Below, one piece after another: positions 6,451 to 50,276 of a stretch of DNA of 53,864 nt. Under the pieces are notes generated by a model, which had not been told where the DNA came from, searched no databases, and saw only the letters and a list, made by a program, of their open reading frames with translations. The DNA comes from Clostridiaceae bacterium (GTDB lineage: Bacteria; Bacillota; Clostridia; Peptostreptococcales; Natronincolaceae), in contig JAFIFG010000036.1 in NCBI GenBank assembly GCA_020832135.1, positions 1 to 53,864 on the forward strand, in the 5' to 3' direction. The position numbers and the translations under genes were made by a program. Each line of letters opens with the position of its first letter. Positions within the stretch are counted from its first letter, which is position 1.

Positions 6451-6600
6451 ACAAAAAACCTCTTCTCAAAAAGAAGAGGTTACTATCACCTAGTTCGGTC
6501 CTCATCTTCCAGAATGAATATCCTGTGGGAATTAGCACCGTACTTTCTACGGTTGCCGGGTTTCGTCGGGCCCATCCCTCCACCACTCTTGATAAGGTAT
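6451..6600 (-). ncRNA. SAM-I (S-box) riboswitch with terminator
   Basis: The minus strand reads CTTATCAAGAG, then GGTGGAGGGA, then GCCCGACGAAACCCGGCAAC, GGTGCTAATTCC and GATGAG, in the canonical order of the SAM-I aptamer (about 6486-6600). It is followed by a perfect stem, AACCTCTTCT with AGAAGAGGTT, and a run of T (6450-6481). SAM binding to this class favours the terminator. It sits 80 bases upstream of metK. Confidence 0.97.
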
Positions 6601-15273: not shown

Positions 15274-15446
15274 TTGTAAACCTACCTTACTTATAAATTT
15301 AGTTAAATCTAAAGAAAGTATTATAATAAATCAAAATTCTACATTTTTTTACTAAATCCTCTAACATTTACAAGATAATTTAACTCAAGGTACAAATGCT
15401 TGCTAGGATTGCAATAAATAGGACTGAAGTACTATGAAAATAATAT

Positions 15447-15472
15447 GTTTAAATTCGTAATAAGATGGTATA
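15447..15472 (+). promoter_or_regulatory. GTTTAA-N14-GGTATA promoter A (SigB/SigF-like)
   Basis: GTTTAA at 15447-15452 and GGTATA at 15467-15472 are 14 bases apart, which resembles SigB-type promoters (GTTTAA, GGGTAT). The 17-base block ending in GTTTAAA and the downstream AATAAATAGAA are shared with promoter B. No housekeeping promoter overlaps them. Confidence 0.45.
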
Positions 15473-15479
15473 TACATAA

Positions 15480-15556
15480 TAAATAGAAACTCATACCCCC
15501 CTCTATTTATCTAAAAGGGGCTATTTCATATACTGGTGAAATAGCCCCTTTGTTTA
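15480..15556 (+). ncRNA. Candidate short transcript A
   Basis: A promoter-like element, a ~35-base leader and a 15-bp perfect terminator stem would give a transcript of about 75-80 nt with no reading frame. CCCCCCT at 15496-15502 could pair with AGGGG of the terminator stem, which would give an alternative fold. Confidence 0.35.
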
Positions 15557-15557
15557 G
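15514..15557 (+). terminator. Terminator hairpin, copy A of a repeated family
   Basis: AAAGGGGCTATTTCA (15514-15528) and TGAAATAGCCCCTTT (15537-15551) form a perfect 15-bp stem, then TGTTTAG. The same core recurs at 15881-15918 and 19597-19638. Confidence 0.75.
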
Positions 15558-15623
15558 TGTGTGTATGCTTTTTATTTTAATATTATTTTTTTAAAAAAAT
15601 ATATATAATTTTCAAAATAATAT

Positions 15624-15649
15624 GTTTAAAGTGAAAGAACAGTGGTATA
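15624..15649 (+). promoter_or_regulatory. GTTTAA-N14-GGTATA promoter B (SigB/SigF-like)
   Basis: GTTTAA at 15624-15629 and GGTATA at 15644-15649 are 14 bases apart, exactly as in promoter A. The spacer bases differ while the two boxes and the flanking AAAATAATAT and AATAAATAGAA are kept, as expected for a functional promoter pair. Confidence 0.45.
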
Positions 15650-15656
15650 TATGAAA

Positions 15657-15925
15657 TAAATAGAATCCGATAACTCCCTACCAATCTAATAAACTTACCA
15701 AATATTTAATTTATAGGATGTTTATTAGGTTACTAAAAAAAGAAAGGATAAGCTGTAGCAGAGAAACGTAAGAATAAAAGGTTTTATCTAAAAGGAGGCG
15801 TTGCTGAAGAATATGACTAACGAAAATCCACCGAAGTCACAGGAAGATTGGTATAGTTATTTCCGATTCTATTTTACCTAAAAGGGGCTATTTCATATGA
15901 TGATGAAGTAGCCCCTTTGTTTTTT
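15657..15925 (+). ncRNA. Candidate transcript B (structured leader and micro-ORF)
   Basis: From promoter B to the terminator at 15881-15918, about 270 nt. A 12-bp stem with one wobble (AATCTAATAAAC near 15684 with GTTTATTAGGTT near 15720) lies in the leader. It is followed by a purine-rich stretch, then AAGGAGG and a very short reading frame. I do not recognise it as a known riboswitch class. Confidence 0.35.
15813..15881 (+). CDS. Candidate micro-peptide, aromatic-rich
   Basis: 22 codons starting MTNENPPKSQEDWYSY and ending FRFYFT. The stop codon abuts the terminator stem. AAGGAGG is 14 bases before the ATG, which is long; an in-frame TTG at 15801 would add four residues but is too close to the site. 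Correct order of promoter-like boxes, ribosome site, frame and terminator favours a real gene, but it could be chance. Function unknown. Confidence 0.3.
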   Translation: MTNENPPKSQEDWYSYFRFYFT

Positions 15926-15926
15926 G
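15881..15926 (+). terminator. Terminator hairpin, copy B of a repeated family
   Basis: AAAGGGGCTATTTCAT (15881-15896) pairs with ATGAAGTAGCCCCTTT (15903-15918) with one wobble, then TGTTTTTTG. The T-tract is only good on the plus strand, which supports a plus-strand transcript here. It also lies just past the stop of the minus-strand HD-GYP gene. Confidence 0.8.
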
Positions 15927-18737: not shown

Positions 18738-18890
18738 AAAAAAAGAAGACACACGTAATAAAGGTGCCTTCTTCAACTACTAATGATTCCATTAGTATGT
18801 TTTTGGAAACCTGGCAATCATAGAAATGAAAACTTCCTTTAGACCCATGGCTTTGCGTCCTTATTTTTCAATAAGTTTGCCTTTATCAAT
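18738..18890 (-). ncRNA. c-di-GMP-I (GEMM-I) riboswitch with terminator, upstream of chemoreceptor
   Basis: The minus strand reads AAGGCAAAC, a GAAA-capped hairpin (TTATTGAAAAATAA), GGACGCAAAGCC, GGGTCTAAA and TTGCCAGGTTTCC in the order of the GEMM-I aptamer (about 18800-18890). AAGAAGGCAC and GTGTGTCTTCTT then form a terminator stem (18744-18774) followed by TTTTTTTG, 62 bases before the chemoreceptor start. c-di-GMP would switch between termination and read-through. The GAAA loop may dock into its receptor as in the family. Confidence 0.95.
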
Positions 18891-19274
18891 GTTGTTGATA
18901 TAACTATGGAATTTTTCATCAATGGGAACTAAGCCCTAGAAAAGGTTGCTACAAAATAGCACTCCAGACTTAACTTCAATGACATACTTCGATATTTATC
19001 TTGCAATTCCTTCTTTTTTTACTTTAGTATAATTTTTTTAACCATTAAAAAATTTATATGTGAAATATTTAAAAAGTGTAGAAATTTGACGATTTATTAG
19101 TTATAATGAAAAAAAATAGGACCTAAGCACTACGTTGATCGTTTCTAGATTATCAAAGAATAAACTTGAAAACTAATTCTTAAAAAGTGGATGAAATCTA
19201 GCATTCTTAAGGAACACTGCATTGATTTGACTCTGTGGTTTTCAAAAACACTAAAAACATAAGGAGGGATAGAG

Positions 19275-19596: not shown

Positions 19597-19645
19597 ACAA
19601 AGAGGCTACTTCATATAATTATGAAGTAGCCTCTTTGTTTTAGTG
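19597..19645. terminator. Bidirectional terminator, copy C of a repeated family
   Basis: ACAAAGAGGCTACTTCAT (19597-19614) and ATGAAGTAGCCTCTTTGT (19621-19638) form an 18-bp perfect stem with TTT-rich tails on both strands. It ends brnQ on minus and the 60-residue gene on plus. The core is shared with the hairpins at 15514 and 15881. Confidence 0.85.
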
Positions 19646-20938
19646 TATATATCCTTCTTTCTTTTTTGTGTAATTAGATACTAAATAAAAGATAAGTCCT
19701 GTTGCAATAGCTGGTACAATCCATCCAAATCCTTGGGCAGTTAATGGTAATGCCTGCATTACATCACTTACTACTGGGATGGGAATATTGAAGCTTCCTA
19801 AGACATCAAGCAAACTTACCACCAAGGTAGCAAATACTGCTCCAGTATAGATAGCTTGACTCTTCATATATTTATCTAAAAATGCCAATGCCACCAATAC
19901 AATAATAATTGGATACAATACCAATAATATAGGTTCTGCTAAGGTTATAATCCTATCAACTCCAATGTTGGAAATACCCATACTAACCAATGCAGTAGCA
20001 ATGGCTATCGTCTTGTAGCTTAGCTTTCCATTGGAAGCTTTACTAAAATATTCTCCAGCCGTGGCTGTTAATCCAATAGAGGTGGTTAAGCATGCCATTC
20101 CAACAGCAAGTGCTAATAAAACTTGACCAAAGGTTCCCAGCAGATTGTTGGTAATACTTATAATCACTTGCGATCTAGATATATCCATTGGTAGTTCTCC
20201 AGCAGTTGCCCCCAGGTAGGCTAGTCCACCGTAGACAATTGCCAACCCTGCTGCCGCCACCATTCCTGCCTGAACTGTTAATTGTGCTATTTCTGTATTT
20301 TCCTTGTATCCTTTAGCTCGAATTGCCCCCACGATAATTCCACCAAGAATAGTAGCCCCCATGGCATCCATTGTTTGATATCCCTCCGCAAAACCATTAG
20401 CAAAGGAGATATTCATACCAGTATCTATAATCATACCCTGTGGTTGAAAAACACCCTTTACAATAATAGTAATCATCGTAAGTAGAAGAATTGGTGTAAG
20501 GATCTTACCAATATTATCAATTAAGGATGAAGGCTTTAAAACAAAAACTAATACAATAGCAAAGTATATGGCTGAAAAAAGAATGGAATTAAAATTAGGA
20601 AAAAAAGGCAGGATACCCATTTCATACGTAGTGGCACTTGTTCTTGGAATTGCTACTAATGGTCCTAATGTTAAGATAACTGCAAAGGTTAAAAGCTTTC
20701 CAAACCTTTTATTCGCCTTTGATGCCAATTGCTCTAAATCTCCCCCAAACTTAGACACTGCTATAATTCCCATAAGTGGTAGCCCTACCCCGGTTAAGAG
20801 AAAACCACCAATAGCTGGTAATAGGTGTTTACCAGCATTCTGTCCTAAGGCTGGTGGGAAAATTAAGTTCCCTGCTCCAAAAAACATTGCAAATAAGGCA
20901 AATCCAATAACAAAAACATCCTTTGTTTTTTTATTCAT
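19640..20938 (-). CDS. brnQ: BrnQ branched-chain amino acid carrier
   Basis: 432 residues, about twelve membrane helices. The N-terminus FALFAMFFGAGNLIFPPALG is the LIVCS family signature. PRTSATTYEMGILPF near residue 100 is also conserved. It imports leucine, isoleucine and valine with Na+ or H+. AGGAGGTATACTT precedes the ATG. I see no T-box or other leader, and the upstream 340 bases to the next gene hold only promoter-like AT-rich sequence. Confidence 0.95.
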   Translation of the reverse strand: MNKKTKDVFVIGFALFAMFFGAGNLIFPPALGQNAGKHLLPAIGGFLLTGVGLPLMGIIAVSKFGGDLEQLASKANKRFGKLLTFAVILTLGPLVAIPRTSATTYEMGILPFFPNFNSILFSAIYFAIVLVFVLKPSSLIDNIGKILTPILLLTMITIIVKGVFQPQGMIIDTGMNISFANGFAEGYQTMDAMGATILGGIIVGAIRAKGYKENTEIAQLTVQAGMVAAAGLAIVYGGLAYLGATAGELPMDISRSQVIISITNNLLGTFGQVLLALAVGMACLTTSIGLTATAGEYFSKASNGKLSYKTIAIATALVSMGISNIGVDRIITLAEPILLVLYPIIIVLVALAFLDKYMKSQAIYTGAVFATLVVSLLDVLGSFNIPIPVVSDVMQALPLTAQGFGWIVPAIATGLIFYLVSNYTKKKEGYIH

Positions 20939-25057: not shown

Positions 25058-25168
25058 GAGCATCTACGACGCTTTCGCTAGGAAACCCTAGGTTCCCTTC
25101 GACGACAGCCAAGCTGTCTGAGCACCTTCCTGAAAACGGGCAGGGGATTCCATCCCCTACAACCCCTT
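25058..25168. repeat. GC-richer hairpin block (REP-like or relic structured RNA)
   Basis: About 110 bases visibly richer in G+C than the surroundings. Hairpins: a near-palindrome GGAAACC-CTA-GGTTCC (25081-25096), GACAGC-CAA-GCTGTC (25104-25118), and AGGGGAT-TCC-ATCCCCT (25142-25158). No reading frame. Relatives of such blocks are dispersed in many Firmicutes, but the identity cannot be fixed from one copy. Confidence 0.45.
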
Positions 25169-25173
25169 TTTTA

Positions 25174-25240
25174 TTTAATAGGAAAGTAGAACTTTCCTAT
25201 TAAATAAAAAATCCTTTAAAGACTTCCTCTTTAAAGGATT
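25174..25240. repeat. Two adjacent perfect hairpins
   Basis: TTTAATAGGAAAGT (25174-25187) with ACTTTCCTATTAAA (25191-25204), 14 bp and 3-base loop; then AATCCTTTAAAGA (25210-25222) with TCTTTAAAGGATT (25228-25240), 13 bp and 5-base loop. The second is followed by TTT on plus. Both lie between the methyltransferase stop and the hairpin block and may stop transcription entering from either side. Confidence 0.6.
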
Positions 25241-49771: not shown

Positions 49772-49855
49772 AATTTTCCAACCAGCTACCATACTATCGA
49801 TGTAGTTTAGGCCCTTGGTTTTGTGTCCTTATTTTTCAATAAGTTTGCCCTTAAA
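49772..49855 (-). ncRNA. c-di-GMP-I riboswitch upstream of GGDEF gene
   Basis: Minus strand: AAGGGCAAAC, TTATTGAAAAATAA (GAAA loop), GGACACAAAACC, GGGCCTAAA and GGTAGCTGGTTGG, the GEMM-I order. The GGACGCAAAGCC block of the other copy is GGACACAAAACC here (two changes). No terminator follows within the 80 bases to the gene, so control may be on translation or by another fold. Confidence 0.88.
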
Positions 49856-50276
49856 AAATATTAAATTTTTTATTCATCACAACGTATTACCCCTATTTTT
49901 AATATACTACCCAATGTTTTTATTAAACAACTCCAAAATAGGACTATTTTACTATAGTATTATTTACATTCTCTATCTTTTGAAAATTTTCCTCCTAATT
50001 TATAGTATCATAATACGACTTTCGTTCTTCAATTTTCCGTATATTTCGACATATTTCCTTCTAGTCAAAATTTTTGTCTGCCAAAAGTGTTACCTGTAGC
50101 ATAAGCTAATGACTAATATTAAATCCCTTCCTATATAAATCTAGGTCAATACAATTAATGTTTTGTTAGTAAAAAGAGGATTTAAATTAAGTTAATAGAA
50201 ATAATCAGTCATATGAACTATTTTCTAGAGGGATAATCCATGAAGTAGCTAGTAAAGTATAGGGGGAACCTGATTT

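Follow-up and report, generated by a model that had tools for sequence, protein, structure and literature searches.

Two transcription units at the locus

The window, by which we mean the whole stretch of 53,864 nucleotides that was analysed, carries on its forward strand two neighbouring units that begin and end alike. A 17-base block, AAAATAATATGTTTAAA, is identical at 15437-15453 and 15614-15630, GTTTAA-N14-GGTATA occupies 15447-15472 and 15624-15649, and AATAAATAGAA comes next in both units. A repeat search of the window paired the unit starts (66 nt, 74% identity, 177 nt apart) and likewise the terminators (55 nt, 87% identity, 367 nt apart). We assign the following features to the two units, and expect transcription of unit 2 to start near 15655.

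15447..15472, forward strand: unit 1 promoter; -35 GTTTAA 15447-15452, -10 TGGTAT 15466-15471; architecture as in homologs
15479..15510, forward strand: unit 1 short stem; AUAAAUAGA 15479-15487 with UCUAUUUAU 15502-15510, C-rich loop AACUCAUACCCCCC
15514..15551, forward strand: unit 1 terminator hairpin, from repeat pair and fold
15624..15649, forward strand: unit 2 promoter; -35 GTTTAA 15624-15629, -10 TGGTAT 15643-15648
15655-15920, forward strand: unit 2; its promoter is followed by 5' arm, loop containing Shine-Dalgarno sequence and ORF, and terminator
15659..15686, forward strand: unit 2 5' arm; helix 1 15659-15667, helix 2 15669-15675, helix 3 15679-15686
15676-15678, forward strand: unpaired, conserved CCC segment of unit 2, between helices 2 and 3
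15793..15798, forward strand: Shine-Dalgarno sequence AGGAGG, 14 nt upstream of ATG
15813..15881, forward strand: small ORF MTNENPPKSQEDWYSYFRFYFT plus stop, with frame-specific conservation in 31 homologs
15846..15873, forward strand: 3' arm of the helix, within the ORF; 15846-15853, 15855-15861 and 15865-15873, 24/24 pairs in the window copy
15881..15918, forward strand: unit 2 terminator hairpin; its first base is also the final one of the stop codon

The first-pass annotation had described two units with this box pattern and a common terminator hairpin, and they are indeed present to an extent exceeding chance: the window has two occurrences of GTTTAA-N12-16-GGTATA, where 0.08 would be expected, and none of 100 shuffles reached two. 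A genome scan for the boxes, which that annotation had called for beforehand, found GTTTAA-N13-15-GGTATA at 10 places genome-wide compared with 2 for a reversed control pattern; because there are 10 such places, the boxes alone are not peculiar to this locus. Relative to shuffles, unit 1 folds with a z of -6.0 and unit 2 with a z of -4.4, the terminator hairpin being inside both folded stretches.

The locus was also said to fit no known RNA family, and this agrees with our searches. Rfam gave no family here at the gathering level, a permissive search of the locus gave 16 matches, every one below its own cut-off (for instance, RsaE/RoxS at 16.9 bits versus a cut-off of 79, with CsfG absent from these permissive matches), and no family exceeded its gathering threshold in 12 related loci.

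Spread of the element in related genomes

When unit 2 was used as a DNA query, 27 of 98 genomes gave matches, its own included, some of them by short pieces only. From the better matches we read 19 stretches, 18 of which contain an ORF of the approximate form M..[DSN]PPK....[DG]W[YH]SYFRFY.. followed by a stop; L014, L016, L017 and L022 deviate from this pattern, and L006 lacks an ATG. A model of the 3' part of the element built from 18 sequences (R1) matched 16 of the 20 genomes of the own family, with the own genome counted and four lacking the element, 37 of 393 genomes in a sample of the order (own genome again counted) and five of 391 in a sample of the class, four of which were already known. 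The weak matches in G160 and G304 of the order sample and in G699 (L105) of the class sample were later dropped because the 3'-arm pattern was not found in them at up to nine substitutions, and two other matches (L063 and L064) are, by position, the reverse strand of terminators. Named genomes were scanned with a pattern, which turned up 25 places; the 5' arm stands upstream in 18 of them, and we set aside the seven without it. The element occurs across several families of a single order; the named genomes with it include, among others, Alkaliphilus, Natronincola, Tindallia, Anoxynatronum, Geosporobacter, Anaerosolibacter and Thermotalea.

A second full copy lies on another contig of the window's genome (L061), beside a tdk-like gene. 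Genes that we take to be tdk-like and DUF1385-like often flank the element in its own family; outside that family it occurs in other neighbourhoods, and no co-conserved neighbour gene was found across the loci. Searches for the element returned no match in plasmids and two in phages, at E of about 5. The possibility that the arms are the ends of a mobile element was set aside because the promoter and terminator beyond them are conserved along with the arms, family f5 excepted. Could absence of the sigB operon account for the four family genomes that lack the element? This proved no explanation, because a wider motif found rsbV in them where our first motif had missed it.

In two loci (L007 and L014) the loop is enlarged by short tandem repeats (GTAGTAAAAGTAAGTTA-like), so that the arms are 510 and 676 nt apart, and the helix is kept.

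A 24-bp helix joins the ends of the transcript

The leader of unit 2, with the consensus AAATAGAATCCGGTAGCTCCCTACCAATC, complements the final codons of the ORF; together they form a helix of 24 bp between the 5' arm and approximately the last 11 codons. For its analysis 34 loci were chosen, of which 31 passed the pattern, two were added by hand and one (L066) was omitted, the compact forms described below being excluded. Across the 33 homologs, with both arms joined, 97.5% of 789 helix cells are paired and changes on both sides are seen at 13 of the 24 pairs, in 53 cells; none of 500 shuffles, which ignore relatedness, reached any of these values. Controls in which one arm was slid by 1-3 bases gave at most 50.1% paired cells, four such pairs and eight such cells, a comparison that somewhat favours the helix because the structure was drawn from the same sequences. 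Five pairs in helices 2 and 3 each show changes on both sides in at least five sequences.

RNAalifold found the helix unprompted in 15 full-length homologs, and folding of single sequences placed at least 15 of the 24 pairs above a probability of 0.5 in 30 of 31 homologs, the remaining one (L018) having seven. Both arms are conserved in sequence as well as in pairing. For RNAs of dual function one looks for RNA structure that is conserved independently of coding, and both the covariation and the compact hairpins of family f5 provide it here; activity of the RNA itself would be a prediction from sequence. The idea that the CCC segment acts as a covarying anti-Shine-Dalgarno sequence found no support by eye.

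A conserved micropeptide reading frame

The ORF of the window, MTNENPPKSQEDWYSYFRFYFT, has 22 amino acids and its homologs have 21-26, as start codons were picked by a rule that allowed 18-27 amino acids and preferred ATG. Independent of the start rule is the position of the stop, which lies two codons past FRFY or its variant in 28 of 31 sequences, three codons past it in two and five in one. In a frame test outside the helix (30 sequences), differing codons scored a mean BLOSUM62 of 0.73 in frame versus -0.56 and -1.30 in the other frames, and within the helix (31 sequences) they scored 1.06 versus -0.18 and 0.05; the test ignores relatedness and yields scores without a significance value. 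Also, insertions between PPK and W are of whole codons. Codon pattern and stop position lend support to translation of the frame, as judged from these comparisons.

By our scoring, the distance from the Shine-Dalgarno sequence to the start codon that the rule picked is 14-20 nt in the own family, which is longer than usual, and 4-11 nt in other families, with 1 nt in L087. In L006 neither ATG nor GTG stands where a start would normally be; there is only a TTG, 2 nt past the Shine-Dalgarno sequence. In the window copy the Shine-Dalgarno sequence is outside the helix, and over the homologs its mean unpaired probability is 0.43 versus 0.50 for the loop interior, values by which it is not clearly predicted to be less accessible than the remaining loop.

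By eye, the peptide is polar and aromatic with no hydrophobic stretch. Pfam, NCBIfam and PHROGs gave no family at E <=10 for the window peptide, in searches whose HMMER filters can lose such short proteins. The strings WYSYFRFY, SYFRFY, YSYFRFY and DWYSYF were not found in the literature searched, and none of the matches listed for small RNAs or sRNAs of Alkaliphilus concerns the element. As far as these searches go, this is a conserved and undescribed family of an RNA with a micropeptide.

Compact hairpins in a sister family

A second model, R2, made for the hairpin with a short loop, matched four of 393 genomes of the order; being built with a short loop it was, as expected, silent on the long-loop members of the own family. 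In three genomes of family f5 (G045, G070 and G034), which represent three genera, both arms of the helix lie close together. The G045 hairpin alone folds with a z of -6.95, and longer stretches from the other two, which include a terminator-like hairpin, fold with z of -4.98 and -8.30. By eye, ATG, GTG and TTG are all missing from the FRFY frame in two of the three, the third has an ATG without evident Shine-Dalgarno sequence, the stop is 6-8 codons on from FRFY, and a SigB-like promoter was not seen at these hairpins. In all three (L140, L141 and L142) the gene whose 3' end faces the compact hairpin is presumably an RsgI-like anti-sigma gene. Two R2 matches were rejected: G241, matched in two places, of which the one read (L143) is a near-perfect palindrome without an asymmetric loop, and G640 of the class sample, with a low score of 29.8 bits.

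In f5, then, the helix takes the form of a compact hairpin that is apparently noncoding, so that the RNA itself is probably functional as well. These hairpins suggest that the element may occur purely as an RNA and that its reading frame was gained or lost through a change of the loop.

Which sigma factor reads the promoter?

GTTTA[AT]-N12-15-[N][GC]GTA[AT] was found in 25 of 33 upstream regions of the homologs (shuffles gave a mean of 0.05 and a maximum of 1), with a box spacing of 13 nt in 22 of the 25. The earlier observation that the boxes are conserved and the spacer is not therefore extends to relatives, which keep the boxes at the same spacing. The pattern was missed in eight regions, two of which (L011 and L015) have a SigA-like TATAAT, and five f6 homologs (L074, L075, L077, L079 and L087) have TGGTATAAT, a sequence that could be taken for an extended -10 SigA site. 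From the -10 box to the arm there are 11-12 nt in 19 of 23 measured cases and 30-32 nt in four, which by eye have an extra AAGAAGG..CCTTCTT-like hairpin. An extra hairpin of this kind between promoter and 5' arm was seen, again by eye, in family f11 (L022, L069, L070, L076 and L102).

The SigB consensus of Clostridioides difficile is WGWTT-N13-17-(G/T)GGTAWA, with GGTWA as printed in PMC7494833 (PMC7494833, PMC7482061), and the window promoters, TGTTT-N15-TGGTATA, fit it as it is given in those accounts. This is a fit of sequence, from which SigB dependence would be predicted. Extended -10 and SigB promoters of that species are described as difficult to distinguish (PMC7438776).

In the own family, GTTTA[AT]-N11-15-GGG[TA]A[AT] occurs upstream of rsbV in eight of 18 stretches (<=2 kb before the sigma gene; a raw count). 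The rsbV motif was present in all 18 family loci examined, from 20 genomes, and all 20 family genomes have SigBFG matches above cut-off, the window's own genome having three. The gene order in G000 is rsbV-rsbW-sigma. Its sigma factor passes the SigBFG cut-off and scores 202 bits with the SigB equivalog, whose cut-off of 315 it does not reach; the SigF and SigG equivalogs give 185 and 149 bits, and another, SigF-named subfamily model gives 212. The RsbW of G000, at 140.7, is just below the cut-off of 145.

Six f4 and f6 genomes that are 98-100% complete (G022, G033, G044, G024, G035 and G046) each have a single SigBFG match at E 1e-60. In all six this factor is downstream of rsbW-like and gyrA-like (by eye) genes; the rsbV motif was tagged in f6 only, f4 having an ORF of similar size in the same place. 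The f4 genome G061 has two SigBFG matches, and G077 and G055 (75% and 80% complete) have none. The promoter is kept in five of the six (L071, L073, L078, L074 and L075), G024 not being among them. Because the promoter persists where the single SigB/F/G factor adjoins rsbW, we favour SigB rather than SigF or SigG as the factor predicted to read it, with SigA, through an extended -10, as a possible one. Of the SigB/SigF class named in the first-pass annotation the SigB half fits, and the assignment to SigF is probably wrong.

In seven of the 18 family loci the interval between gyrA and rsbV holds a short unit with a TGTTTA box, GGGGAA, GAAGCC..CAACCCCCATA and a terminator-like hairpin (L131, which is G000:C126, L121, L123, L125, L126, L130 and L132). 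It had no Rfam match in the four loci scanned, and looks like a second candidate C-rich sRNA with a SigB-type promoter.

Unit 1

Contrary to the picture of two matching units, unit 1 is not equivalent to unit 2. It has no ORF like that of unit 2, and matches R1 weakly, at 33 bits. It has kept the promoter, outer stem, C-rich loop and terminator, and by its sequence it looks like a copy of the element that has lost helices 2-3 and the ORF through internal deletion. Unit 1 could be a relic, or it could serve as a small regulatory RNA, rich in C, that shares the control of unit 2. CsfG/RoxS-type sRNAs use C-rich segments for targeting, and like these C-rich sRNAs of Bacillus unit 1 is short, ends in a terminator and has a C-rich loop. 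No unit like it was found in other family genomes with R1, which is a weak probe for unit 1; a model of unit 1 itself was searched in the own genome alone.

Discussion

What would a transcript of this architecture do? The first-pass annotation had taken both units for small RNAs, which holds in part; the best description of unit 2 is a peptide-coding RNA with an end-to-end helix, and not an sRNA only. We propose, with a probability of roughly 0.55, that unit 2 is a stress-induced, dual-purpose transcript that is made by SigB, closed by its helix and opened by translation. Comparison of sequences provides the promoter architecture, the 24-bp helix, the ORF and the terminator right after the stop. 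SigB-RNA polymerase would make an RNA of about 265 nt, whose 5' end would close onto its own coding sequence and so render it stable and shielded from decay at the 5' end. A ribosome that starts in the loop would have to unwind the helix to complete the peptide, and therefore translation and the closed, RNA-active form would be mutually exclusive. When translated, the RNA would yield the peptide and expose the 5' arm, which includes the conserved CCC segment; without translation the closed hairpin would stay and could act as RNA. More tentative, and in our estimate rather doubtful, is the stronger idea that the same bases serve as the covarying 3' strand of the helix and as the C-terminal codons SYFRFY, with the ribosome toggling between closed hairpin and open messenger. 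Stability, toggling and any target are what we infer from the architecture.

Parts of this arrangement resemble known systems, as far as the accounts that we drew on describe them. The mRNAs of aapA and hok have short ORFs and ends that pair over a long distance to give a stable folded transcript (PMC6733600), and in both respects unit 2 is like aapA/IsoA and hok/Sok. In those systems, however, the pairing hides the Shine-Dalgarno sequence and the product is a small toxic protein, whereas in unit 2 the 3' strand is coding sequence, the helix lies in the last part of the ORF and the peptide, judged by eye, lacks hydrophobic character. Similarly, SR1/SR1P of Bacillus subtilis and VcdRP of Vibrio cholerae are described as small RNAs with a small ORF that also act as RNA, which is what we propose for unit 2. 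Going by those descriptions, unit 2 is set apart from SR1 and VcdRP in that one and the same set of bases, with covariation, forms both the end of its ORF and a structural arm.

Might the RNA be noncoding after all, a regulatory hairpin that binds a protein or targets, with the ORF a by-product of the conservation of the helix? The arms are conserved in sequence beyond pairing, the compact helix exists in f5, where two of three genomes have no start codon in frame, and unit 1 has no such ORF. We nevertheless hold this to be improbable, as conservation is specific to the frame from the start to PPK, outside the helix, the stop position is fixed in 31 of 31 sequences and insertions between PPK and W are of whole codons; also, f5 lacks the early stop, as expected if the other families alone code. 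An explanation of about the same standing retains both RNA and peptide and attributes them to an extended -10 SigA promoter, in which case this would be no stress RNA. The TGGTATAAT of the five f6 homologs, the TATAAT of L011 and L015 and the difficulty of separating the two promoter types in C. difficile (PMC7438776) would agree with it, but the -35 GTTTAA is unlike the SigA hexamer, is held at one spacing (13 nt in 22 of 25) and matches the boxes near rsbV in eight of 18 family loci.

A type I toxin mRNA silenced by 5'-3' pairing in the manner of hok or aapA, with an antisense partner, would share with unit 2 the short ORF, the strong end-to-end helix and a promoter and terminator of its own. 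We consider it quite unlikely, since the polar and aromatic peptide has no membrane segment (by eye) and the helix extends over the end of the ORF and leaves out the Shine-Dalgarno sequence, which is not consistently paired. Boxes of SigB, SigF and SigG overlap, and three SigB/F/G factors in the window genome exceed the cut-off, which would leave room for a csfG-like forespore RNA of SigF or SigG; the single SigB/F/G match next to an rsbW-like gene in all six f4/f6 genomes, with the promoter kept in the five read, makes this very unlikely. That the ORF is an attenuator leader peptide for a downstream gene is hardly to be credited: the short ORF, its paired C-terminal codons and a terminator straight past the stop are as it would require, yet the next two downstream genes of the window are on the opposite strand, and downstream neighbours vary across loci and are often convergent.

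Should unit 2 indeed be a SigB-made, dual-purpose transcript, the stress response of anaerobic clostridia would gain a further, conserved family of RNA and micropeptide, and nature would have supplied an example in which to study how one stretch of bases satisfies a peptide and a helix together. The compact hairpins of f5, mostly without an ORF start, are a natural control for this in a sister family.

Other features of the window

Rfam matches elsewhere in the window are the following.

6499-6598, reverse strand: SAM riboswitch
18802-18891 and 49774-49859, reverse strand: c-di-GMP-I riboswitches
25092-25174, reverse strand: Clostridiales-2 RNA

A third hairpin like both terminators (GAAGTAGCCTCTTTG) is found at 19599-19641, where it ends at the 3' end of a transporter-like gene at 19640-20938 on the reverse strand.
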